A DNA stretch of 24,503 nucleotides from Candidatus Cloacimonadota bacterium (lineage in GTDB: Bacteria > Cloacimonadota > Cloacimonadia > Cloacimonadales > TCS61). The translations under genes and the position numbers were made by a program. The notes beneath the pieces were generated by a model. That model was given only the letters and a program-made list of their open reading frames with translations. It searched no databases and was not told where the DNA came from. The number at the start of each line of letters is the position of its first letter. Position 1 is the first letter of the stretch. The stretch lies in the NCBI GenBank assembly GCA_030445745.1, contig JASUTE010000024.1:1-24503 (forward strand). Reading direction: 5' to 3'. Below are positions 6,256-20,074 of the stretch, in pieces.

Positions 6256-7242
6256 CTAATTTTTTTTAGACGATAATAGTTCTCTGATAATACCTTTAGC
6301 ATTCAGGCCTTCTGCTTCGGCAGCAAAAGATACTAAGATGCGGTGCTGCAGCGTAATTTCGGCAACTGCTTTTACATCTTCTATAGAGGGTGCATAACGA
6401 TTTTGCAAAGCTGCTCGAGTACGAGCAGCTTTTATTAAAAATTGAGAAGCGCGTGGTCCTGCTCCCCAGTTAACCCATTTTTTTATAAAATCTGGAGATT
6501 CGGCATAGTGGGGTCTGGTAGAACGCACTAATTTAACAGCAAATTCCACCACGTGCTCGCTTACGGGAATATCATCGATCACCTTTTGTAGTTCTACAAT
6601 TTTCTGAGAAGTCATTAATGGTTCAATTTGTTTATAACTAATGTTGGTATCGCTGCGAGTGATTAGTAATTCTTGTTCATAAGTAGGATAATCGATGTTT
6701 ATATAAAACATAAATCTATCCAACTGTGCTTCCGGAAGCGGATATGTTCCCTCTTGCTCAATAGGGTTTTGCGTAGCTAGCACTAAAAAAGGTTCTTGAA
6801 GTTGATAAGTTTTGTTCCCAGCAGTAACCTGGTGTTCTTGCATTGCCTGCAGCAAAGCCGATTGTGTTTTGGGTGGAGTTCTATTTATTTCATCTGCTAA
6901 GATAATATTGGCAAAAATAGGACCTTTAATATATTCAAAATATCTTTTACCATTCTCCTTATTTTCGGCTAAAATATCGGTACCTGTGATATCGGAAGGC
7001 ATAAGGTCGGGCGTGAATTGAATACGGCTGAATTTCATATTCAGAACTTTGGCCATAGTAGAAACTAAAAGAGTTTTAGCAAGACCAGGTACACCTTCCA
7101 ATAAACAATGTCCGCCTGCAAAGAGAGCGATCATGAATTCTTCGATCACCTTATCTTGCCCAATTATAACTTTTGCAACTTCTTTTTTGATCTGTTCACG
7201 AGTTTCTGCAAGTTCTTCCAATAATTCTATTTTTTTACTCAT
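6256..7242 (-). CDS. MoxR-family AAA+ ATPase
   Basis: This 328-residue AAA+ ATPase of the MoxR/RavA group acts as a chaperone-like remodelling factor. Walker A is EGVPGLAKT (49-57), Walker B is LADEINR (115-121), sensor 1 is ATQNP (156-160), and LPEAQLDRF is present as expected for the family. The ATG at 7242 has AGGA just upstream and overlaps the preceding gene's stop by 8 bases; ATGs at 7260 and 7290 lie deeper inside that gene. MoxR genes usually sit beside DUF58 and von Willebrand A-domain genes; none is seen here. Instead it is the last gene of the ether-lipid operon. Its job there is unknown, possibly assembly or maturation of a membrane complex. Confidence 0.92.
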   Translation of the reverse strand: MSKKIELLEELAETREQIKKEVAKVIIGQDKVIEEFMIALFAGGHCLLEGVPGLAKTLLVSTMAKVLNMKFSRIQFTPDLMPSDITGTDILAENKENGKRYFEYIKGPIFANIILADEINRTPPKTQSALLQAMQEHQVTAGNKTYQLQEPFLVLATQNPIEQEGTYPLPEAQLDRFMFYINIDYPTYEQELLITRSDTNISYKQIEPLMTSQKIVELQKVIDDIPVSEHVVEFAVKLVRSTRPHYAESPDFIKKWVNWGAGPRASQFLIKAARTRAALQNRYAPSIEDVKAVAEITLQHRILVSFAAEAEGLNAKGIIRELLSSKKN

Positions 7243-8260
7243 AATTTCCTGTCTTTTCATACTTAATTCTGTTTTTAGCAGCAGGGACAATTTCTTTAAA
7301 TTTTATTTTTAGTGCAAGGAAAGAAATTATTCCTACCAAAAAAATCCAGAAAGCTGTAAGTAGATGTGAAAAAGTTACAGCTGCACTGGTTAGGTTTTCG
7401 TTAATTCCCAATGCGAAGGAGAAGATTAACACCCACATCACCTGGTTAGAACCAATTTGTGCTGGTGGTGTAGGCAGAATATATGTTAGGTTCATTAATG
7501 TGTAGCCAAAAAGAATTTGCCAAAAATCAACTTGTGCACCAAAACTCAGAAAAACCATCCAGATATATAAAGCTTCAGAAATTACGGCACAGATGGTTAG
7601 CAAATAAATAGCGATGTGGGAGAGGGTGCGTCCTTTCATGATAGCCATTCCTTCCACAAAATTTACGAAAAATTCTGCCAGAAGACTGCGATAACGCAAT
7701 GGAATAAGCTTTAGGAAAATATTTAAAAATTTTATAGCTTTGTGTTTGTGGTGAACTGAAAAAATTAGAAAAGCTAAAAACAGGAGAAAAATTATAAACA
7801 AAGCGATAATAATGGTTTTAAGGGTGCCATTCAACTCTACTGTGATAAGTGGAATCAGAAAAATAATAATGATGATAGGGAAAAGATCTGTGATTTTGTC
7901 TATTAGGATAGTAGGCAGGCTTTTGGAGATGTGAATATCGTGATTAATTTTCAAAATCAGTGATTTAGCTATTTCGCCAGCGCGCACTGGGATAAGGTAG
8001 TTAATGAGTAAACCAGACATAAAGATGCCATAGCTTTCACCAAGTTTCATGCGGTAGATTGGATTGAGAATTATTTTCCAACGGAGACTACGAAAAAAGA
8101 ATGCTAATAAATAAAAAATAGAAAATAGCAGGATGGGAACGACATTTACCTGGGTAAAATATGTGAGAAATTCTCGCCAATCTACAATATTGATCCAAAT
8201 GACCAAAAAGACCAAGCCTAATAAAGAAGCAATAAGCCAATTTAACTTATTTTTCTTCAT
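7235..8260 (-). CDS. UPF0104 / LPG-synthase-TM family integral membrane protein
   Basis: This 341-residue protein has about eight hydrophobic membrane segments and the family signatures PVRAGEIAKS (91-100) and PTPPAQIGSNQ (263-273). This is the membrane half of the MprF/AglD/YbhN superfamily. No soluble lysyl-transfer domain is present, so it is not a full lysylphosphatidylglycerol synthase. Members are linked to lipid flipping or to transfer of lipid-linked groups. In an operon that makes ether lipids, a flippase or lipid-modifying role is a reasonable inference. It overlaps the small membrane protein gene upstream by 14 bases and moxR downstream by 8. Confidence 0.85.
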   Translation of the reverse strand: MKKNKLNWLIASLLGLVFLVIWINIVDWREFLTYFTQVNVVPILLFSIFYLLAFFFRSLRWKIILNPIYRMKLGESYGIFMSGLLINYLIPVRAGEIAKSLILKINHDIHISKSLPTILIDKITDLFPIIIIIFLIPLITVELNGTLKTIIIALFIIFLLFLAFLIFSVHHKHKAIKFLNIFLKLIPLRYRSLLAEFFVNFVEGMAIMKGRTLSHIAIYLLTICAVISEALYIWMVFLSFGAQVDFWQILFGYTLMNLTYILPTPPAQIGSNQVMWVLIFSFALGINENLTSAAVTFSHLLTAFWIFLVGIISFLALKIKFKEIVPAAKNRIKYEKTGNYE

Positions 8261-8447
8261 CTTTTCCTTTTTGTAGGTTCACTAAAATGGTTACAATAAT
8301 AGAATATACAATTCCTGCTATCACAGTTTTCAGCAGTATTTTTCCAAATTCCTGTTCATTTCTAAAAAATGGAATAAAATAATTAATAGAAAAAAAGATA
8401 ACTGAGAAAATAAGAAAAGATAGCACTAGATGGATGATATTTTTCAT
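8247..8447 (-). CDS. Small two-helix membrane protein, unknown function
   Basis: This 66-residue protein is not recognised. It has two predicted transmembrane segments (about 5-25 and 38-58) separated by a short loop (FRNEQEFGK), and a charged tail (KGKDEEK). It is judged real because it fits exactly between its neighbours: its start overlaps the methyltransferase stop by 4 bases (ATGA), and its end overlaps the UPF0104 gene by 14. It may be a subunit or stabiliser of the membrane protein encoded next (inference). Confidence 0.7.
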   Translation of the reverse strand: MKNIIHLVLSFLIFSVIFFSINYFIPFFRNEQEFGKILLKTVIAGIVYSIIVTILVNLQKGKDEEK

Positions 8448-9280
8448 ATTTGCCTCTGTGGTACGAAAAGATAAAATTTATGATGTGCCCAAATAGATTT
8501 AAAAAATTTGGGAGCATAATTTTCCAACCAGGAATATTTTAGCATTTTATAAGCAAAGTAGGGATCTTTATCCTGGTAATAACCTAAAATGGAGATCGAT
8601 TCCGATTTGGTTTTCAATATTTTATCCAGCTTCATTTTTTTTAGGAATTCCAGTTTAGGCATACCGATATCGGGCCAGGGAGGGCAATCAATATAATTTG
8701 ATTCGGTTAGTTTCCAGTCTCTTTGTTGAAAAAGTGGCACAAAATTTTGCGGAATGATATTTTTGGGATAAAAATCGGGGATATTTTCCATTTTCGTAGA
8801 ATATTTTTGACTTAGATAGCCTAACCCATACCGATTAGGAACGCAGATAAAGATTACCTTTTTTGTCACACGCGTTAATTCATTAATAAATGGAGCTAAA
8901 TCGGCTACGAACCACAAAGCAGAAAAGTTCCAGCTCATATCAAAATAGTCATCTTCAAAATCCAGAAAGTTATAACTATTCTGCATCCGGAAGGCTACCT
9001 GCTGACCAATTAATTTCCAAATATATTGTACCAGTTTCAAGCGATCTTCATTATGGTCAAGTAAGGTGATATTGCAACCCATTTTAGCCAGGCTTACACT
9101 GTTAATCCCACTAAGACCGGTAAAACCAAATATTGGTGCTTCCAAAACATTGGTAATTTTGTATTCTCTGGCAATTTTGCGTAATTTCCTATTTAAAATC
9201 ACCCGTTCATAAGAAGAGCCCAAGCCTTCATCGGGATTAGAGAAGTACCGCTGCCAATTATTTATAATGGGAATTGCCAT
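8444..9280 (-). CDS. Class I SAM-dependent methyltransferase-like protein
   Basis: This 278-residue protein has a Rossmann-type methyltransferase core. A motif I region (NVLEAPIFGFTGLSGI, about 44-59) is followed by ITLLDHNEDR (71-80), whose Asp is the usual ribose-binding acid, and a motif IV-like segment around FDMSWNFSALWF. The motif I glycine pattern (EAPIFGFTG) departs from the usual E/DxGxGxG, so the SAM site is atypical. The C-terminal half is family-specific and unrecognised. It lies 3 bases after the epimerase gene and overlaps the small membrane protein gene by 4. The substrate is unknown; a lipid, sugar or quinone-like acceptor would fit the operon. Confidence 0.75.
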   Translation of the reverse strand: MAIPIINNWQRYFSNPDEGLGSSYERVILNRKLRKIAREYKITNVLEAPIFGFTGLSGINSVSLAKMGCNITLLDHNEDRLKLVQYIWKLIGQQVAFRMQNSYNFLDFEDDYFDMSWNFSALWFVADLAPFINELTRVTKKVIFICVPNRYGLGYLSQKYSTKMENIPDFYPKNIIPQNFVPLFQQRDWKLTESNYIDCPPWPDIGMPKLEFLKKMKLDKILKTKSESISILGYYQDKDPYFAYKMLKYSWLENYAPKFFKSIWAHHKFYLFVPQRQI

Positions 9281-9283
9281 CCT

Positions 9284-10252
9284 CTACTTTTGCTCCTTAT
9301 ACCAGTTTATTACGCTACGAAACTGCGGGATAGTTTTAAAATGTTCCAAATTTAGATTTTTGTATAGCGGTTCTACATCGTAATACCAGCTACGAGAAAT
9401 AAGCTGAAAACGAGATTGCCACAGTTCATTTTTCAAAAATTTGGATATTTTTTCACCCCAGCGGAAAGGTTTTTCACCTATTATTCTATTTTCTGGGTAG
9501 GATTTACCATGCAATTCCTTGGAAATAAAATCGGTTAATTCCCATAAATTGGTAGGAAGATAATCGGCTGCATTGTATACTATGCCAGAGTTGAAAGATT
9601 TGTTTAAAAGTTGCAAAAAAGTATTTGTTACAAGTTGTACATTGGCAAGATGGATTTTTATCTCTTTATTGGGAAGCACCAGCAATTTTTTATCGATTAG
9701 TTTGGTAAGAGTGTAGGGGAAACCCCGATCACCTTCACCATAGGTAATACTGGGACGAACAATAGCTGCTTGTAACCCTTGCAGAATATATTTATTCAAT
9801 AATTTTTCTGACTGGATTTTAGTATAATGGTAGTAGTTATCATCTTGGAATTTAGTATCAGAAGATGCTGGGCAAGCAGATGGTATAGCGCCGTAAACAC
9901 CTACTGAACTACAAAAGAGGAACTTGGAATTATTTTTTAAAGCATTTAAAATAAGCTGTTCAGTAGCATCTACATTAGCCAGGAAATATTTCTGCTGACT
10001 AAAATTACGTCCACCGCGCAAAGCTCCGATGTGAATTATTGCCTCGAAGCCAGTTTGCTCCAAAAATTTTTGCAAAGTTTTAATATCTGTAAGGTCGATA
10101 TTGATAAATTCAACCTCATTTATGAACTCACGAATGCGTTTCTGATCGGTATTGGGACGGATAATAGCTGTTATATCATGATTTTGACGGATAAGTGCTC
10201 GCGCAATATTTTTTCCTATAAAACCGCTGATTCCAGTTAGTAAAATCTTCAT
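9284..10252 (-). CDS. NAD(P)-dependent epimerase/dehydratase (extended SDR)
   Basis: This 322-residue Rossmann protein has the extended SDR dinucleotide motif GISGFIG (7-13), IDLTD (52-56), the catalytic YxxxK at Y141-K145 and Ser in CSSVGVYG (114-121), followed by VRPSITYGEGD. It resembles nucleotide-sugar epimerases/dehydratases and the hopanoid-associated sugar epimerase-like group, but its substrate cannot be told from sequence. It is cytoplasmic. The start overlaps the PHP gene by 4 bases, and the methyltransferase follows after 3. In this operon it could make or modify a sugar head group or act on an isoprenoid intermediate (inference). Confidence 0.87.
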   Translation of the reverse strand: MKILLTGISGFIGKNIARALIRQNHDITAIIRPNTDQKRIREFINEVEFINIDLTDIKTLQKFLEQTGFEAIIHIGALRGGRNFSQQKYFLANVDATEQLILNALKNNSKFLFCSSVGVYGAIPSACPASSDTKFQDDNYYHYTKIQSEKLLNKYILQGLQAAIVRPSITYGEGDRGFPYTLTKLIDKKLLVLPNKEIKIHLANVQLVTNTFLQLLNKSFNSGIVYNAADYLPTNLWELTDFISKELHGKSYPENRIIGEKPFRWGEKISKFLKNELWQSRFQLISRSWYYDVEPLYKNLNLEHFKTIPQFRSVINWYKEQK

Positions 10253-11043
10253 GATCTAAGTTTGCTAAGTGTTTTTTTGAATCTATTCCAAAAGTTGTTT
10301 TTTCCCAGCTCAATATTTTCCAAATAGAATGCGTCTATGTTTTCGTTATTTATTACCTTTTTCGGGTTTTCTTCAGTAAGTAATTTAGAGGTGTAATTAT
10401 CAAATTTTTTGGTAAGTAAATCGGCTACTTCAGCTAAGAGATATTCACCGGAGCGGCAGTGGCAGTCGGAAGCTATAAAATGGCAATAGCCTAGTTCAAT
10501 TAATTTCCAAGCTGCTTTGGCAGAAACGCGACCATAGTTTCCCAGTAAACTACCGGCATTCACCTGAAGTAGAACATTTCTGTGCATAAATTCTTCAGCT
10601 ATCTCTGGCTTTTTTTTGATATCTGTATACCTTTCTGGATGTGCTAAAATCGGTTTGTAGCCAGAGCGTACTATCTGATAGAGTAACTCCTTTAGATTAA
10701 TAGGAAATCCAGTAAAATCTGTTTCTACCAAAACGTATTTTGTATCAGCAATATTCATCTGTTCCTTTTTAATATCATTCAGAATTTCTGGTTCCAGATA
10801 TACTTCGGCTGCTAGGTGCATTTTAATAGGAATCTGCTGCTTAGCTGCTTCTTGTTGCAGTTGCAAAAATTTCTCTTGGCGAATCTGGAGGGTGTTGTGA
10901 AATTGATTGCGAATATAATGCGAAGTGCAAACCAGTTCTGCTACACCTGCAGTAGCCATTTTTTGCAGGAAAGCCAAAGATGTTTCCATATCTGGGGAGC
11001 CATCATCGATTCCGGGTAGGATGTGAGTATGTATATCTATCAT
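10249..11043 (-). CDS. PHP-domain phosphatase (CpsB/CapC/YwqE type)
   Basis: This 264-residue protein carries the metal-binding set of the PHP-family tyrosine phosphatases: HTHILPGIDDG (H5, H7, D13, D14), TSHY (H42), E80, E107, AHPERY (H135, R138) and SDCHCR (D193, H195). Known relatives dephosphorylate bacterial tyrosine kinases in capsule systems. No BY-kinase or capsule export gene is in the window. It overlaps the ether-lipid synthase gene upstream and the epimerase downstream by 4 bases each. That raises the possibility that its substrate is a prenyl-glycerol phosphate rather than a phosphoprotein; this is inference only. Confidence 0.88.
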   Translation of the reverse strand: MIDIHTHILPGIDDGSPDMETSLAFLQKMATAGVAELVCTSHYIRNQFHNTLQIRQEKFLQLQQEAAKQQIPIKMHLAAEVYLEPEILNDIKKEQMNIADTKYVLVETDFTGFPINLKELLYQIVRSGYKPILAHPERYTDIKKKPEIAEEFMHRNVLLQVNAGSLLGNYGRVSAKAAWKLIELGYCHFIASDCHCRSGEYLLAEVADLLTKKFDNYTSKLLTEENPKKVINNENIDAFYLENIELGKNNFWNRFKKTLSKLRS

Positions 11044-11795
11044 TTTCTTTTAACCGAATGTACAGCCTCAGCAATTTTCTTTATTAAATTTGGATCTGGA
11101 TTTTTTTCTATTACGTTGCCCGTAACAACAAAATCTGCACCTGCTTCGGCCTTAGCTTTAGCTGTAGCAGCATCGCTGATACCACCACCTACAATAAGGG
11201 GAAGTTGAATATTTTCTTTTACTGCCGCTATCATTTCATTGGAGATGGAATAATGGGCGCCACTGCCAGCATCCATATATATAATTTTCATTCCTAAATA
11301 TTGCCCAGCCAGAGCATGAGCTATAGCTATATCACTTTTGTTGCGCGGTAAAGGCAGGCTGTTGCTCATGTAATGAACCGATGTGTGATTCCCAGATTCA
11401 ATAAGCATATAACCAGTAGCGATTGCTTCCATATTGTAGTGTTTTATTAGCGGAGCCGCTCTTACCTGTTCACCAATAAGCATCTGTGGATTTCGACTTG
11501 AAATTACACTAAGTAGCAGCAAAGCATCCGCATAAGGAGAAACAAAATTGAATATTCCAGGGAAAATGAGTACCGGAATATGCACACTTTTTTGTATCGC
11601 TTTCAGGATTTTCTCGAAATTATTATGCAGCATTATGCTACCGCCCACCAAAAGACCATCGGCTCCGTTTTCTTCACAGATTTTGGCCATCTGGCTGGCT
11701 TTACTAGGTTCCAGATTATCTGGATCTAATAGGCAAAAATAGTTGGCTTGTTTAGCAGCCATCTTTTCTAATTTTTCATAAATTTTCATATTCAT
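11040..11795 (-). CDS. Geranylgeranylglyceryl phosphate synthase (group II-like GGGPS/PcrB family)
   Basis: This TIM-barrel prenyltransferase joins a prenyl diphosphate to glycerol-1-phosphate by an ether bond, the first committed step of archaeal-type lipids. It has 251 residues. Motifs are LLDPDN (22-27), DGLLVGGS (46-53), FPGIFNFVSPYADALL (78-93), SSRNPQ (99-104), ATGYMLIESG (126-135), YMDAGSGA (173-180), VGGGIS (202-207) and VTGNVIE (224-230); the last three contain the phosphate-binding loops. The length and the SSRNP segment fit group II enzymes, found in archaea and Bacteroidota, better than the shorter heptaprenyl-specific Bacillus PcrB. The ATG at 11795 is chosen because it gives the same 4-base ATGA overlap seen elsewhere in this operon; ATGs at 11807 and 11789 are possible. 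It is flanked by the enzyme for the next step and by a C20 prenyl synthase. Confidence 0.94.
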   Translation of the reverse strand: MNMKIYEKLEKMAAKQANYFCLLDPDNLEPSKASQMAKICEENGADGLLVGGSIMLHNNFEKILKAIQKSVHIPVLIFPGIFNFVSPYADALLLLSVISSRNPQMLIGEQVRAAPLIKHYNMEAIATGYMLIESGNHTSVHYMSNSLPLPRNKSDIAIAHALAGQYLGMKIIYMDAGSGAHYSISNEMIAAVKENIQLPLIVGGGISDAATAKAKAEAGADFVVTGNVIEKNPDPNLIKKIAEAVHSVKRK

Positions 11796-12613
11796 ATCCC
11801 AAACCATAAAATTATTAAAATTAACACCATGTCAAATTTATTAAACTTAGACATCAAAGCAAAGTTCTTTTTTTCCGGTTTTTTTTGCAAGATTATAAAA
11901 AAGATAATTAGAGGAATGCTAACCAAAATATGTAATAGTGAAAACGTAATTAAACCGAAAAAATTGTTCAAATAGAAAATAAAATGTAAAGCAATGATTA
12001 AAATTATTGGAATTAAGGTAAACCCAGCGGTATTGTTACGTCCCAACTTTATAGCCAGGGTATGGGCTTGGGCTAGTCGGTCCCCTTCAATATCTTCACC
12101 ATCTTTCACCAATTCTCTGAGGAAGGTATAGATGAAAGCGTAGATAGCAATTACAATAGCATTGGAAATGTTTTCAGCGCAAATTCCTCCGTACAAGAAC
12201 GCTGAAGTAGCTGTGTAGGAAACCAGGAGATTACCTACCAATATGGTTTTCTTGAAATTTTTTGCGTAGAAAAACAGAACAAAACTGTTTATAAAGGCAA
12301 GAACTATGCAACCTATTTTCTGGGTAAGTAAGCTGAGAAAAATTCCCAATAAAAAAAGGATAACAGCGTAAAGGTAAGCCACATGAGGTGGCATTTTCCT
12401 AGCAGGAAGAATACGATTGGGTCGGTTAATCATATCTATTTTGATATCAAAAAAATCGTTTATTACATATCCAGCAGCAGCGATAATAGCAGCCGAGAGC
12501 ATAGCGAAAATTACCGGTGATAATTGAGGAGAATTATTTAAAAATGCAGCAAAAGCTACACAAGCAGCTACAAAAAAGCAGTTTAACGGCCTAATTATCT
12601 TGAAAAAAGCCAT
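11792..12613 (-). CDS. UbiA-family prenyltransferase, probable digeranylgeranylglyceryl phosphate synthase
   Basis: This 273-residue polytopic membrane protein of the UbiA superfamily has both Asp-rich motifs: NDFFDIKID (52-60), followed by NRPNRILPA, and RELVKDGEDIEGD (166-178). The NDxxDxxxD plus NRPxR pattern and the KDxEDxxGD motif fit digeranylgeranylglyceryl phosphate synthase, which adds the second C20 chain at sn-2 of GGGP. Its gene lies between GGGPS (4-base overlap) and a GGPP-type synthase (2-base gap), which supports this over menaquinone or haem O prenylation. There are about eight membrane segments. The product would be unsaturated archaetidic acid. Confidence 0.9.
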   Translation of the reverse strand: MAFFKIIRPLNCFFVAACVAFAAFLNNSPQLSPVIFAMLSAAIIAAAGYVINDFFDIKIDMINRPNRILPARKMPPHVAYLYAVILFLLGIFLSLLTQKIGCIVLAFINSFVLFFYAKNFKKTILVGNLLVSYTATSAFLYGGICAENISNAIVIAIYAFIYTFLRELVKDGEDIEGDRLAQAHTLAIKLGRNNTAGFTLIPIILIIALHFIFYLNNFFGLITFSLLHILVSIPLIIFFIILQKKPEKKNFALMSKFNKFDMVLILIILWFGI

Positions 12614-12615
12614 TT

Positions 12616-13503
12616 TTAGGGCAGACGTTCTTTTACCATGTTTACGAATTCAATTAGAATATCATTGTTTTTCATATTTTTTATCAGATTATATGAATCA
12701 CGTAACAGTTTTTCAGCTTTCTTTTTAGATTGTTCCAACCCGATAAGAGCCGGGTAGGTAGCTTTACTATTTTTGGAATCTCCTCCGGGTGCTTTTCCCA
12801 AAACTTCAAAACTGCCTACTTCATCCAAAATATCGTCTACTATCTGATAGGCTAAACCTAAATTGAGAGCATAGTTGCTTAAGGTGATAGTAGTATTTTC
12901 TTCTTCACCGTTCATAAGGCAGGCTAAATCAGTGGCAGCTTGCAGCAAAGCTCCTGTTTTTTTGTAATGAATATAGCGCAAGGTGTTCACATTTATCTTT
13001 TTACGAGTGGAGATAATATCGACTGCCTGACCACCTATCATACCGCGAGTAGAGATAGCTTTGGTGAGTATACGAATGCAACTAATAGCCTGTGAACGAT
13101 TTTTTAATTTTGTTAATACTTCAATCGCTTTGGTGATAAGTGCATCTCCAGCCAAAATTGCAGTAGCTTCATCGAATTTTACATGACAACTGGGTTTACC
13201 GCGACGTTCATCCGAATTATCTACGCTGGGTAAATCATCGTGGATAAGCGAAGCTGTATGAACAAATTCTATAGCAACTGCGATAGGGAGAAGTCTGTTT
13301 AAACGATTTATGTTTTTACGACCTATAAGCATTTCATAGGTGGCAAAAAACAGGATAGGACGCAGTCTTTTTCCATCTGATAAAACTGAATAGCGCATCG
13401 CTTGGTTAATTCTCTCTGGGTATTTATCTTCTGGGTCCAAAAATTTATCTAAAGCTTTTTCCAACAACTTACCACGCGTGCGAAAATATTCTTGTACTAA
13501 CAA
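12616..13503 (-). CDS. Polyprenyl synthetase, probable geranylgeranyl diphosphate synthase
   Basis: This trans-prenyl diphosphate synthase has 295 residues. The first Asp-rich motif is DDLPSVD (89-95), with the two-residue insertion of bacterial type II enzymes, followed by RRGKP. The second is DDILD (223-227). GKRLRP (44-49) and KTGAL are also present. The residue five before the first Asp is A84; E. coli farnesyl diphosphate synthase has Tyr there. A small residue at this position lets the chain extend past C15, so C20 product is favoured. It starts with TTG, supported by GAGG six bases upstream and by the absence of a nearby ATG. It is the first gene of the nine-gene operon and would supply GGPP to the two enzymes encoded next. 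Confidence 0.9.
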   Translation of the reverse strand: MLVQEYFRTRGKLLEKALDKFLDPEDKYPERINQAMRYSVLSDGKRLRPILFFATYEMLIGRKNINRLNRLLPIAVAIEFVHTASLIHDDLPSVDNSDERRGKPSCHVKFDEATAILAGDALITKAIEVLTKLKNRSQAISCIRILTKAISTRGMIGGQAVDIISTRKKINVNTLRYIHYKKTGALLQAATDLACLMNGEEENTTITLSNYALNLGLAYQIVDDILDEVGSFEVLGKAPGGDSKNSKATYPALIGLEQSKKKAEKLLRDSYNLIKNMKNNDILIEFVNMVKERLP

Positions 13504-14635: not shown

Positions 14636-17600
14636 ATGATTATTGATTCTCGCTATAAAGTATTAGAAGAATTAGGAAGCGGTATTTGGTCTACCACTTA
14701 CAAAGTGAATGACCTACGAACAGGGAAAGTTTATGCTTTAAAGCTATTTCAAAATATCGAATCGGCCGAGTTGTACGAGAAATTTTCTGCTGAAGATATG
14801 CATCATATTACTAAAATACAACATCCTAACCTACTGCACGTACTCGATTTTGGTAATTTTGGCACTCATATATACTATATAAGCGATTTTTATGAAGGAT
14901 ACTCATTTAGCGATTTTAAAGTACGCTCTTCCAATATGGAGTTGCTGTACGACATAGTAGTGCAAATATGCTATGCTTTAAATGCTTTACATAGCCAGAA
15001 TATCGTGCATAAAGGGCTAAGGCCGTCCAGCGTACTTTACAAAACTTTCAACAATAAAACTGAAGTGAAAGTAGCCGATTTTGGTTTTACCAGAGTGGAT
15101 TTTGCTGTTAGCCAGCAGAATTTAAGTAAAACTCTACCCTATATTGCACCTGAAATTTATATGGGGGAAAAGCCAAAACTACAAAGTGATTTTTATTCTT
15201 TGGGTGTTATTTTGTACAAATTAACCACCGGTAGTTTGCCCTATAGTATCGACCAAATTTCCGATTTTATGGCTGGTAAAGAGATCAACCTATTTCCCAA
15301 ATTCCCGCGTGAATTAAACAAAGCAGTGCCTTTCGGGCTGGAAAGATTGATTTTAAAATTGCTGGAGAGAAATCCAGAAGATCGCTTTACAGATGTAAGT
15401 GGCATTATAGCTTTTATTAACCAGATCCAGCTGAAGAAATATCCCTTCTCGCGCAGGTGGTCGATAGTTCACAATATCGAGTTTAGCGATTATTTGGTGC
15501 GTGAAGATTATTCCCATAGAATTTTAGATTATGTGCCACTGGTAGAAAATGGAAATGGAAAATTAATTTCATTGATAGCCGGAAAAGGATTGGGAAAAAA
15601 CAACGTGCTTACTCTTTTTAAATATCATCTACTAACGGATAAATATTTTATTTTCGATTATGTGTGTAGTCCGAAGCATAAAGATCCATTTTTTGCACTT
15701 ATCAAAGAGTTTTATCATTATGCAGAAAACACCGACCAGTTAAGTTCAGATCTTAGTAATATTTCCGAGAAACTAAAAAAATATCTGTTTGAATCGGAAG
15801 AGGTGGCTACATATATGGAGGAAACAGAGGAAGATCTTTCGCGTGATTTCGAAACTACAGCGAATTTTGTTTTCCATCTATCGCAAGCAAAACCAATTAT
15901 TTTTATAATTAGAAGTGCACAATACTTAGCCCAAGAGGTTATAGAATTTCTCAATTATATTTCGCAAGAACTTTTAAAAAAGCGGATTTTGATAATTTTG
16001 GGTATAGAAGACCCTCGCAAGCTGGAAGGATTAATTCATCCGGTTCAAATCAAAATAGAACCATTGAATTTGGAACAGACGCAAAACTATGTAGAGCGAT
16101 TGGTACATCAGAAAGTGCCGCACGAATTTGTAAAACAACTATGGCAGCGTTGCTATGGGAATCCTTTCTTTATAGAAAAATTTCTAATAGAGTTGACTGA
16201 AAAAAAAGTGATTTGGAACGACAACCACTACAATTTCGAGATTGATTTGGGAGAGTTTGATCTGCCAGAAGAGGTAGTACATTCCATTTACGATCGTATG
16301 AGCCATCTGCAAAAGAAAACCTACCAGGGTTTACAAAAAATGGCAGCTGTATTTACTCCTTTTTCCAAAGAACTATTACGTTACATATTGGATATAACCG
16401 ATAAAGAAGCCTTCTTCCTAATAAACGACGGCTTAAACAACGAGATTATAAAACTTGATGCCGAGTATTATAAATTCACTTTCAAAGAGGCTAAAGAAAG
16501 AATGTGGCTAGAGATTTCTGAAGAGGATAGAAAGCTGGTTAGTAGAAGGGTTTTGAGTTACTTCGATGATAAAACAATCACACGTCTGGATTTTTTAAAG
16601 GGAATAATAAAGCATGCTAATTTTATTCAAGATTTTGTTGCTCTTAGGAAGTATACACTGAAACTTTCCGATTATTATGCAGATAGAAAAGAACATGAAG
16701 CCAGTTTCGAGCAGCTCTGTATAGCTGTAGAAATAGATTTTGCCAAAGAGGGTGAAGTAGCTGCAAAATATATTCATCGTGATCTGCTACAACTTATTCA
16801 AAAATCGGAGTGGACAACTCCCAATCGCATTCCCGAAGAGTTGAAAAATTTCATTGTCCGGATGCCAGATATTGCAGAAAAACATCTACTCATCGGGATT
16901 TTTTATATGGAATTGGAAAAATTTCAACTTGCTGTAAAAAGATTACAAAAGGCATATAAAGTAGCTATTACTGGATTTTTCAAAATTCTATCGTTAATTA
17001 AATTGGCGCGTACATATTATTTTCTTAACAACTATGACAAGATGGATGAATGTTTGCAAGAACTTGAGAAATACACAATTACGCCCAACTTGGAGATACA
17101 GACTGTGGGAGTGCGTGCCTTGTATTTGGGAGCTCAAAATCGACCTGATGATGCTATCAAATTGATAGAAAACTACCTACCCAAAATTCAGGCTCAAAAC
17201 AACGATTATTTCTTCATCAAACTGGGAGAATTACATAATATTTTAGCACTTATGTACCATAAACAGAGAATGCTAAATGAAGCTAATGAGAATTTTCTGA
17301 CTGCTTGCAATATTTGGGAAAACCAGCATTATACCAAAAAATTGGGTACAATTTATAATAATATCGGCGATGTTGCCTTGATGCGCGGAGATACCAAGAC
17401 AGCTTTTAAGTATTTCGACAAAGCTCTGCAGCTGGTTCGGAAGAATAATATTAGATCGGGCATAGTACAAAGTCTTTTGAATCTTGGGGAAGCATACGTG
17501 AAACTGGGGGAATTCCAAAAAGCTGAATCATATCTGTTCCAAGCTTTAGAAGTATGCAAAACATTAGAAAATAAACCTTTTTACGAATCAATAATAAATA

Positions 17601-20074
17601 ACTTGGCTATTGCTAAGAGCCGTATAAAAAATTTGGCATACTACCTAAATTTCATAAAAAAACATGCTCCAGAGGTTGTGAAAGGACGTGTAGAAACTAT
17701 AAATCCGCTGGTAAAAACCTATTTCTACTACCTTATAAATATAGGAAATTATGCTAAATTGGAAAAACTTCTGCAACAGGGCAAACAGGTTATATTAGAT
17801 AAAAAGGAAGATGAGTTCTTTTTCCAAATGAAAGGCTATTTACTTTTGAACAAAGGGGAATATAAAGAAGCATCACAGATTTTAGAGAGAGCTTTTCAAT
17901 ATTCGCAGCGCAACCAGAGTGAATATGCCCAAGTTATAAATTATATCCGCTTACTGGAAAGCTATTTTGGCATGCACAGTACCGAAAATGCTATAGAAAT
18001 TTATCAGAAAGCTGAAAAATTATCTTCCCAAAACAACTTTTACTATTGGCGCAAAGTGCTGCGGTTGCGCAAGGTTAAGATAGATCTGCTGGATCCTGAT
18101 ATTAGCCTGCGTAAACTGGTGCGCGACCTTTTGGATATGCTGAATATAGTAAAAAAACGCGAATTATATTTTCTGGAACTGGATATCTATGAACTGCTGA
18201 TGCAAATTTATGGTAAATTGAATGTGAAGCGTAAAGCACGGTTCTTTTTTAAAAAATATAAAAAGAAAGTGGAAGAAGTAACCGAAGGTCTGCCTCAGCA
18301 TGATAAAGATATGTTTTTCCGAAAAACAAATTACCATTTGCCCACCTATAAAGATTTCCAAACAATAACTATTGCCAATCGCTTTAAAGAGGATTTGGAA
18401 AAATGGCAGGAAGAGATCTACGATGTCTTAAAAATAAAAGAGATTAGCCGTATAAAGTTTTTCATTAATCGTAAGATAAGATCTCTATTTTCACCTTACT
18501 TTTATGCCATTATTCTTAAAGATGAAATTTATCATAAACAGAAACCTTTTATTGCCTATAATGTGAAGCAAGATACACTTTTCCAGGAAAAATTTTATGC
18601 TAACATTATGAGCAGTTTGGAAAAAAACGAAGTGATTTCACGCAAAATTAGCAGATCACATGTGCTATTTGCTCCATTACGCATCAAAACTACTCAGGTG
18701 GGTTGTTTAATTTTGGCCGATCGGGGCGAGCTGGAATTCCAAGAAGATGAAAAGAATATGATAAAAATTTTGCGCTTGCACCTTACTTCTCTGTTGCTGC
18801 GGATAGATGAATTTACCTCTCTGAATCGACGTATGCAGCTTATGAACAAACTTATTGGCATAAATGAAAAATTCTTTTCTATTTTGGATATTTCCAAGTT
18901 AGAACAGGAAATTGTGTTGTTTGCCTTAGATTTTATCGATGCTAACCGGGGATTTTTGATAAAAAAGGATGAATTTGAAAATTACCGTTTCGCTGTAGCT
19001 TTAGATGAGGCTAAAAATATTTTGAATAACTATACTTACATCAGTAAATCACTGGTAAGTGAAGTACAGAAAGAGAAACAGCCTGTGTTTATCCAAAATG
19101 CTAGCCAAGATGAACTCTTTGAAGGATTTTTAGATATTGAAAAAAAGCAATTGTCGGTTTATTGTGCCCCTATTATCGTTGACGGTAATATTTATGGATT
19201 TTTGTATTTAGATAATTACGGCAACCATGAAGAACTTCTAAACATAAATTCAGAATTTATGCGACTTTTATTAATTCAAATTTCAGTAGCAATAAAAAAT
19301 GCCAATCAATATGAAGCACTACGTCGTAAAAATATGGAGATAAACTCTTTGAATAACCTAAAAACCGAATTCATCAACATAGTTTCCCATGAACTAAAAA
19401 CTCCGTTAGTATCACTGTTAGGTTATATAAAACGACTGCAAAAGAACCCTGAAGACCAAGAGCAAGTTATCGATACTATAGAAGAAGATGTAATGCGTCT
19501 GCACGATACTACTCAGAATATTATCGATTACAATAAATATCGTATGACCTCACAGCTCAGATTGACTCCGGTGAATATTAGCGATCTTCTTAGAACAGTG
19601 ATTGATGATTTGAAAGATAAAAGCGCTTACCGCCATATGCGTTACAAATTGGAAGTAGACGAACAGTTGCCCCCGGTTAACTTGAACTGGCAAGCTTTTG
19701 AACTGTTGGTGCGTAACCTGATAGACAATTCAATTCGCTTTACTAACGATTTTGGTACCATCACTGTGGGAGCGCGACGTTCTGCTTTCCAAAAAGAGAA
19801 AGTAAATAACAAAGAATCTCTGGTAGTTTATGTAGAAGACAATGGTATTGGTATTCCTGAAGGTGAATTAAAAAATGTCTTTCAGAAATTCTACGAGCTC
19901 AGCGATATTTATTCCCATAGTTCAGGAAAATATGAATACCGTTCCAGTGGTTTAGGACTGGGGCTTTCCACCTGCGAAATCATTGCCGAGTTGCACCATG
20001 GAAAAATTTGGATAAACAGTAAGGAAGATGAGGGCACAACCGTTTTTGTAGCCGTACCTTTGGAAGAGGATTAA
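14636..20074 (+). CDS. Giant multidomain sensor: Ser/Thr kinase-like, AAA-like, TPR, two GAF-like domains, histidine kinase
   Basis: This 1812-residue protein has no signal peptide or membrane segment. Residues 5-270 have a Ser/Thr-kinase fold with K36 (YALK), DFG (148-150) and APE. The catalytic loop reads HKGLRPSS (125-132) where active kinases have HRDLKPEN, so the catalytic Asp and the metal-binding Asn are gone. Residues about 290-600 resemble an AAA_16/STAND module (GNPFF at 508-512). Its Walker A is AGKGLGKN (315-322), with Asn for Ser/Thr, and its Walker B position reads FIIRSAQ (423-429), without the acids. TPR-like repeats follow (about 740-1120), then two GAF-like domains (about 1260-1390 and 1405-1555). 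The C-terminal histidine kinase looks complete: H1585 in SHELKTP, N1698, D1735 in EDNGIGI and GLGLGLS (1772-1778). The order matches known hybrid Ser/Thr-His kinases of cyanobacteria and other bacteria. AGAGG precedes the ATG. No receiver domain or response regulator gene is present. The TPR gene starts 4 bases after its stop. Confidence 0.93.
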   Translation: MIIDSRYKVLEELGSGIWSTTYKVNDLRTGKVYALKLFQNIESAELYEKFSAEDMHHITKIQHPNLLHVLDFGNFGTHIYYISDFYEGYSFSDFKVRSSNMELLYDIVVQICYALNALHSQNIVHKGLRPSSVLYKTFNNKTEVKVADFGFTRVDFAVSQQNLSKTLPYIAPEIYMGEKPKLQSDFYSLGVILYKLTTGSLPYSIDQISDFMAGKEINLFPKFPRELNKAVPFGLERLILKLLERNPEDRFTDVSGIIAFINQIQLKKYPFSRRWSIVHNIEFSDYLVREDYSHRILDYVPLVENGNGKLISLIAGKGLGKNNVLTLFKYHLLTDKYFIFDYVCSPKHKDPFFALIKEFYHYAENTDQLSSDLSNISEKLKKYLFESEEVATYMEETEEDLSRDFETTANFVFHLSQAKPIIFIIRSAQYLAQEVIEFLNYISQELLKKRILIILGIEDPRKLEGLIHPVQIKIEPLNLEQTQNYVERLVHQKVPHEFVKQLWQRCYGNPFFIEKFLIELTEKKVIWNDNHYNFEIDLGEFDLPEEVVHSIYDRMSHLQKKTYQGLQKMAAVFTPFSKELLRYILDITDKEAFFLINDGLNNEIIKLDAEYYKFTFKEAKERMWLEISEEDRKLVSRRVLSYFDDKTITRLDFLKGIIKHANFIQDFVALRKYTLKLSDYYADRKEHEASFEQLCIAVEIDFAKEGEVAAKYIHRDLLQLIQKSEWTTPNRIPEELKNFIVRMPDIAEKHLLIGIFYMELEKFQLAVKRLQKAYKVAITGFFKILSLIKLARTYYFLNNYDKMDECLQELEKYTITPNLEIQTVGVRALYLGAQNRPDDAIKLIENYLPKIQAQNNDYFFIKLGELHNILALMYHKQRMLNEANENFLTACNIWENQHYTKKLGTIYNNIGDVALMRGDTKTAFKYFDKALQLVRKNNIRSGIVQSLLNLGEAYVKLGEFQKAESYLFQALEVCKTLENKPFYESIINNLAIAKSRIKNLAYYLNFIKKHAPEVVKGRVETINPLVKTYFYYLINIGNYAKLEKLLQQGKQVILDKKEDEFFFQMKGYLLLNKGEYKEASQILERAFQYSQRNQSEYAQVINYIRLLESYFGMHSTENAIEIYQKAEKLSSQNNFYYWRKVLRLRKVKIDLLDPDISLRKLVRDLLDMLNIVKKRELYFLELDIYELLMQIYGKLNVKRKARFFFKKYKKKVEEVTEGLPQHDKDMFFRKTNYHLPTYKDFQTITIANRFKEDLEKWQEEIYDVLKIKEISRIKFFINRKIRSLFSPYFYAIILKDEIYHKQKPFIAYNVKQDTLFQEKFYANIMSSLEKNEVISRKISRSHVLFAPLRIKTTQVGCLILADRGELEFQEDEKNMIKILRLHLTSLLLRIDEFTSLNRRMQLMNKLIGINEKFFSILDISKLEQEIVLFALDFIDANRGFLIKKDEFENYRFAVALDEAKNILNNYTYISKSLVSEVQKEKQPVFIQNASQDELFEGFLDIEKKQLSVYCAPIIVDGNIYGFLYLDNYGNHEELLNINSEFMRLLLIQISVAIKNANQYEALRRKNMEINSLNNLKTEFINIVSHELKTPLVSLLGYIKRLQKNPEDQEQVIDTIEEDVMRLHDTTQNIIDYNKYRMTSQLRLTPVNISDLLRTVIDDLKDKSAYRHMRYKLEVDEQLPPVNLNWQAFELLVRNLIDNSIRFTNDFGTITVGARRSAFQKEKVNNKESLVVYVEDNGIGIPEGELKNVFQKFYELSDIYSHSSGKYEYRSSGLGLGLSTCEIIAELHHGKIWINSKEDEGTTVFVAVPLEED

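Follow-up and report, generated by a model that had tools for sequence, protein, structure and literature searches.

The genetic potential for archaeal-type ether lipids is already known in the bacterial phylum Cloacimonadota and is not new. The main text of Villanueva et al. 2020 (PMC7852524) describes a pair of genes for geranylgeranylglyceryl phosphate synthase (GGGPS) and digeranylgeranylglyceryl phosphate synthase (DGGGPS) in four Black Sea metagenome-assembled genomes (MAGs) of Ca. Cloacimonetes, and a resequenced scaffold that carries GGGPS, DGGGPS and a polyprenyl synthase. According to the same text, the GGGPS is active with both glycerol-1-phosphate (G1P) and glycerol-3-phosphate (G3P), the two enzymes together lead to unsaturated phosphatidylglycerol-archaeol in E. 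coli, and the MAGs contain a geranylgeranyl reductase (GGR) and are without CarS and G1P dehydrogenase (G1PDH). Here we analyze an operon of this kind in a stretch of 24,503 nucleotides from a Candidatus Cloacimonadota genome (contig JASUTE010000024.1 of assembly GCA_030445745.1), referred to below as the window. Its genes resemble the Black Sea pair in that GGGPS and a UbiA-family DGGGPS-like gene are adjacent and accompanied by a polyprenyl synthase, GGR is present in the genome, and CarS and G1P dehydrogenase are missing. A first-pass annotation of the window had noted that such potential is described for bacteria of the FCB superphylum, and for the host group it is a matter of published record.

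Three other systems provide points of comparison. The archaeal diether core consists of a geranylgeranyl diphosphate (GGPP) synthase (GGPPS), GGGPS, DGGGPS and GGR, with the M. jannaschii DGGGPS (6m31) and the M. thermautotrophicus GGGPS (4mm1) among its solved members. The host has homologous GGGPS, UbiA-family DGGGPS and GGR proteins in the same logical order, but its predicted GGPPS is of the bacterial type II whereas the archaeal enzyme is type I, and it combines the absence of detectable EgsA and CarS with the bacterial phospholipid entry enzyme PlsY. The PcrB (heptaprenylglyceryl phosphate) pathway of Bacillus likewise involves a bacterial enzyme of the GGGPS superfamily that places a prenyl ether on glycerol phosphate; Bacillus adds a single C35 chain and has AraM. 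The window protein passes the GGGPS model and fails the PcrB model (47.7 bits against a cut-off of 260). Finally, Bacteroidota GGGPS proteins include the closest solved structure (4jej) and the closest loci outside Cloacimonadota, with 44–47% identity over most of the protein, but in the Bacteroidota loci that we fetched the GGGPS gene does not stand beside homologues of the window prenyl synthase or UbiA protein.

We consider it likely that the host operon encodes an archaeal-type diether core pathway, in which the UbiA and GGGPS genes form a cassette within a phylum-wide operon, and that the cassette was lost once or twice with accompanying decay of the operon prenyl diphosphate synthase (IDS). 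What is new here is the cassette structure, the IDS decay, the split into GGPPS-like and farnesyl diphosphate synthase (FPPS)-like enzymes, and the tracking of the cassette by GGR, all across 124 genomes. The main text of PMC7852524 does not cover the operon found throughout the phylum, the clean site in families without the cassette, the IDS decay, the GGPPS/FPPS-like split and the Glu/Asp variation described below. In the open-access literature searched, neither the cassette-less operon nor IDS decay is reported; their novelty is provisional because subscription papers, preprints and supplements were outside the search.

The UbiA-GGGPS cassette and the operon prenyl synthase

The first-pass annotation placed three coupled genes at 11040–13503, and the open reading frames lie exactly there, tightly packed on the minus strand: IDS at 12616–13503 (295 aa), UbiA at 11792–12613 (273 aa) and GGGPS at 11040–11807 (255 aa). 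The spacer between IDS and UbiA is 2 nt, the probable GGGPS start (ATG at 11795) overlaps the UbiA stop in the sequence ATGA, and the GGGPS stop overlaps the start of the following gene, a PHP-type phosphatase, by 4 nt. Beyond GGGPS the operon runs through five further genes, down to 6256. The host genome of the contig measures 2.04 Mb and is 99.3% complete, and the nearest named relatives by GGGPS (70–72% identity) are Candidatus Cloacimonadota.

In our survey of 124 Cloacimonadota genomes, GGGPS scored above the cut-off in 66 (67 if one split gene is counted), and UbiA was found in the same genomes. The order IDS-UbiA-GGGPS-PHP is kept in most genomes examined, over many families and reaching the second order of the class, and the full operon found throughout the phylum reads IDS-(UbiA-GGGPS)-PHP-SDR-methyltransferase-flippase-MoxR. 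Families f2 (49 genomes), f4 and f9 are without UbiA and GGGPS, and there the operon reads IDS-PHP-SDR-methyltransferase-flippase-MoxR. Because these families show a clean IDS-PHP site, we describe UbiA-GGGPS as a two-gene cassette located precisely between IDS and PHP.

In a tree of the operon backbone, f2 and f4 group as a single clade without the cassette (support 100/99), with f9 uncertainly apart, while in the outgroup order, represented by family f13, all members bear the cassette in its place. On these grounds the cassette is most simply taken as ancestral to both orders compared and as lost once or twice. Two candidate losses elsewhere are better read as gaps: in genome G085 the contig breaks just before PHP and the operon IDS is unassembled, and in G104, which is 64% complete, the contig ends about 190 bases past an intact IDS. 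As a separate observation, several f13 genomes (loci L055, L056, L064, L066) have SDR, flippase or MoxR inverted or located elsewhere, and IDS-UbiA-GGGPS-PHP stays together.

The state of the operon IDS follows that of the cassette. The IDS of 65 genomes with the cassette and of 44 without it was retrieved, and its two Asp-rich motifs were identified by alignment of orthologues; in the window they read DDLPSVDN (13216–13239, minus strand) and DDILDE (12820–12837, minus strand). Both motifs are intact in 65 of 65 cassette-bearing genomes and at least one is degenerate in 43 of 44 cassette-less genomes, counts that are not independent events and whose Fisher p-values are not to be read as if they were. 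The one exception (G104, locus L189) is probably an assembly gap. The first motif is degenerate in cassette-less relatives and the second in most of them. For example, f2 shows DDLPSVMN and IEDIEAD, f4 shows either DDLPSLNN, there combined with a second motif that is intact, or IHSSLPNLND, and f9 shows HEDLPDIS. The degenerate copies are not pseudogenes, since their reading frames are whole and their ratio of nonsynonymous to synonymous substitution rates (dN/dS, for pairs with estimable dS) is 0.04–0.10, similar to that of the active copies and of the PHP gene. At the individual cassette-less loci (L080, L081, L083–L087, L089–L092, L098 and L178–L209, with L189 intact) the degenerate IDS heads the operon and is under purifying selection.

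Relaxed selection once the cassette was gone would fit both the graded decay seen in f4 and f2 and the different pattern of f9. Read most simply, the operon IDS serves as a catalyst to supply GGGPS and DGGGPS, and the protein has a further role that does not involve catalysis; it is possible that the degenerate IDS serves as a non-catalytic partner of the second synthase discussed below. The matched state of IDS and cassette is good evidence that the ether-lipid pathway is under selection and used in nature. It had been argued from the tight gene order in the window that a real pathway is more likely than scattered paralogues, and the loss of the cassette together with IDS decay strengthens that argument.

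The genes downstream of the cassette, all on the minus strand, form the rest of the conserved operon. They comprise a PHP-type metallophosphatase of the CpsB/CapC family (10249–11043; PF19567, 8.3e-55; present in 117 of the 124 genomes), an SDR-type NAD-dependent epimerase/dehydratase (9284–10252; PF01370, 1.8e-33, and synteny), a class I S-adenosylmethionine-dependent methyltransferase (8444–9280; PF08241; match in 104 genomes), a flippase-like membrane protein of the LPG_synthase_TM family (7235–8260; PF03706, 1.3e-31, and TIGR00374; match in 108 genomes) and, as the last gene of the backbone, a MoxR-type AAA ATPase (6256–7290; PF07726, 2.4e-64, and synteny). The surroundings are bacterial, as first described, with a 5'-truncated 5S rRNA gene at 1–88 and EF-G at 135–2207. 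On the other side of the operon, at 14636–20074, lies a gene for a protein of 1812 aa that, as read from the sequence, seems to begin with a Ser/Thr-kinase domain, to contain TPR-like repeats and to end in a region resembling histidine kinases.

Product assignments of the three core genes

The operon IDS matches the polyprenyl_synt family (PF00348) with 3.4e-58 and is a predicted type-II GGPPS. In enzymes of this type the first Asp-rich motif contains an insertion of two residues that includes Pro, and small residues occupy positions −4 and −5 before the motif (PMC7261888, PMC9385802). The window protein reads TASLIH-DDLPSVDN, with Ala at −5, Ser at −4 and the two-residue insertion with Pro, in agreement with the C20-type product originally proposed. 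The host's second IDS, located on contig C33, reads HTYTLIH-DDLPEIDN, and all second copies examined have Tyr or Phe at −5. Tyr or Phe at this position is the rule for bacterial FPP synthases. PF00348 proteins occur in every well-complete genome of the phylum, and most have two. The curated models fail to tell these synthases apart, as both best match the FPPS subfamily (297 against a cut-off of 275 for the operon IDS, which scores 265 with the GGPPSynCrtE equivalog, below its cut-off of 460), and the FPPS/GGPPS split therefore rests on the motif rule. By that rule the host appears to have an FPPS for housekeeping alongside a dedicated GGPPS.

The GGGPS protein matches the PcrB/GGGPS family model with 1.7e-46. 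It passes the curated cut-offs of NCBIfam TIGR01769, phosphoglycerol geranylgeranyltransferase (207.9 bits, cut-off 161.55), and of NF003198 (286.6 bits, cut-off 247), and we classify it as group II-like. The best solved relatives are 4jej and 4mm1, which we take to be the GGGPS of Flavobacterium johnsoniae and of Methanothermobacter thermautotrophicus, respectively. Its identity as GGGPS is supported by the curated models, and the enzymatic activity is predicted. A search of a plasmid collection for GGGPS gave no match.

The UbiA-superfamily protein (UbiA family model, 6.6e-35) carries the motifs NDFFDIKID and DGEDIEGD and is a predicted DGGGP synthase. Among curated models it scores 184.5 bits with PRK12882 (DGGGPS), compared with 67.8 for ChlG, 38 for UbiA and 24.7 for haem o synthase, and among solved structures 125.5 bits with MjDGGGPS compared with 30 for chlorophyll synthase. 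A profile built from the Cloacimonadota UbiA proteins and applied to reference sequences fetched from public records gave 173–221 bits for archaeal DGGGPS, 68 for ChlG, 54–59 for UbiA, 27–44 for CyoE and 22–23 for MenA. Thus the curated models, the solved structures and the profile all favor DGGGPS over the quinone, haem and chlorophyll classes, and on these scores the grouping with menaquinone, haem or chlorophyll prenyltransferases that the first-pass annotation named as refuting is not seen; the support from the tree considered below is modest. We infer the DGGGPS identity from this similarity, backed by the published activity of a relative. Taken together, the family models, the structures and the IDS signature uphold the products first assigned to all three genes.

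Other lipid genes and the proposed route

Geranylgeranyl reductase is present in 62 of the 67 genomes with GGGPS, compared with 7 of the 57 without it. The host GGR lies on contig C33 of the host genome (G000) and scores 234 bits with TIGR02032 (cut-off 158.8). PlsY is encoded in the host and in nearly all other genomes, which indicates that an ester-lipid route coexists with the ether-lipid genes. Most genomes of the phylum, that of the host included, in fact encode two or more PlsY-family proteins, one a strong match and one a weaker match. The GGR gene on contig C33 belongs to a trio that recurs across the phylum (locus L096, 6559–9327), the next two genes encoding a small membrane protein and a family-2 glycosyltransferase. 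We read the small protein (L096, 7763–8374) as resembling polyprenol or diacylglycerol kinases, and it has no Pfam or NCBIfam match; as a candidate for the missing CarS it was rejected, being present in most cassette-less genomes.

A number of observations weigh against the reading of the operon as a diether pathway. First, the association between cassette and IDS state reflects one or two loss events, and the raw counts overstate it. Second, no G1P dehydrogenase (EgsA/AraM) was found in the host, where PF13685 matches just three proteins, two of them alcohol dehydrogenases and the third AroB-like; among the candidates from the phylum, the strongest two that were examined, full-length PF13685 matches in G060 and G038, proved to be GldA-like (461 and 453 bits, against 95 and 92 with the G1P dehydrogenase model). 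This absence agrees with Villanueva et al. and disagrees with Coleman et al. 2019 (PMC6431249), where a G1PDH orthologue is listed for Cloacimonetes. Third, CarS (PF01864) was not found in the host genome, and only one of the 124 genomes matches, weakly. Fourth, the UbiA protein does not reach the strict cut-offs set for the NCBIfam models that it matches best; its 184.5 bits fall short of the equivalog cut-off of 296 of NF009521/PRK12882, a narrow archaeal model, and for this reason "DGGGPS-like" is the safe name. An initial UbiA tree with very distant references produced long-branch joins and was rebuilt without them; the best reduced tree joins the Cloacimonadota UbiA proteins with archaeal DGGGPS at a modest 74/88, and long branches limit the tree, in which a grouping with MenA is not rejected (p = 0.069).

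The fifth point is the replacement of a catalytic residue in GGGPS. The Tyr/Tyr/Glu triad of the family has been called strictly conserved, and its Glu is thought to set the G1P stereochemistry and to polarize the acceptor hydroxyl (PMC9385802). Aligned to Y134/Y178/E180 of MtGGGPS, the window protein has Y133, Y177 and Asp179 (numbered from the start of the open reading frame; codon at 11271–11273, minus strand). Asp at this position is shared by the window, families f1, f5 and f13 and the aligned Bacteroidota proteins, whereas f3, f6, f7, f10, f11 and f12 have Glu. Because Asp is common in both Cloacimonadota and the aligned Bacteroidota GGGPS, we read Asp179 as a probable variant inside the family and not as ground for exclusion.

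On the observed gene identities, synteny, motif state and co-occurrence, the following route can be proposed for the host. The operon IDS would make the C20 compound geranylgeranyl diphosphate, GGGPS would couple it to glycerol phosphate via an ether bond, and the UbiA protein would attach another C20 chain, yielding digeranylgeranylglyceryl phosphate; these two ether-bond reactions are known from the published relative and are carried over to the host proteins. The GGR would then saturate the chains. As no CarS was found, the ordinary phospholipid enzymes of the cell probably activate the lipid and add the head groups. In the host we infer the C20 product, the saturation, the head-group route and the location of the lipid in the membrane. 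Where the cassette was lost, the IDS would have shed catalytic residues yet stayed as a protein.

Alternative readings and significance

The alternative that survives best, although we regard it as distinctly less probable than not, is that the same enzymes act on G3P, yielding lipids whose tails and ether bonds are archaeal and whose backbone has the bacterial handedness. It would account for the failure to find a known G1P dehydrogenase in the host genome or the phylum and for the Glu-to-Asp change at the residue credited with G1P stereospecificity, and the published Cloacimonetes GGGPS also used G3P, as the main text of PMC7852524 reports. The same text bears on the opposite side, in that GGGPS elsewhere strongly prefers G1P and that E. 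coli forms G1P through an unknown pathway, and the Asp occurs in Bacteroidota GGGPS sequences as well. A broader proposal, which we offer tentatively, is that these bacteria make natural diether lipids without the known G1P dehydrogenase, on G3P or through an unknown G1P route, with the Glu responsible for GGGPS stereochemistry now an Asp, and that after loss of the cassette the GGPPS was conserved as a protein that no longer catalyzes and has taken on a new function.

It is rather unlikely that the product is instead a minor neutral or modified ether lipid, from which the PHP phosphatase strips the phosphate and on which the SDR protein, methyltransferase and flippase act. Heptaprenylglyceryl phosphate in Bacillus does lose its phosphate. 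In nearly all genomes with the cassette the PHP gene comes after GGGPS, in the window with the overlap noted above, and the metal-binding residues of the phosphatase appear to be present as read from the sequence. However, genomes that lack the cassette have PHP, methyltransferase and flippase to an equal degree and in an identical order, and we therefore rejected them as ether-lipid-specific partners; moreover, the PHP family is known for capsule phosphotyrosine phosphatases.

The possibility that GGGPS and DGGGPS run backwards, degrading archaeal lipids for energy, was raised by Coleman et al. 2019 (PMC6431249) and would be in line with the missing G1P dehydrogenase. We consider it very improbable here, as the dedicated, co-decaying GGPP synthase that heads the operon and the co-occurring reductase fit synthesis. 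Even less credible is an origin from chance neighbors, from binning or assembly artefacts (single metagenome-type assemblies can be chimeric) or from a UbiA protein engaged in quinone, haem or chlorophyll synthesis, which is refuted by the recurrence of the gene order in dozens of independent assemblies from several families and opposed by the bacterial flanking genes and the profile scores.

The divide between bacterial and archaeal lipids poses a central question about early evolution, and among bacteria no group is a better candidate for naturally mixed membranes than Cloacimonadota. The presence of the genes and their expression in E. coli had left the natural use of the pathway open, and the matched IDS state now adds evidence from natural selection. 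The cassette-bearing and cassette-less families of this one phylum offer a clean comparison for lipid analysis, and the single GGGPS residue that is either Asp or Glu provides a handle on backbone chirality.

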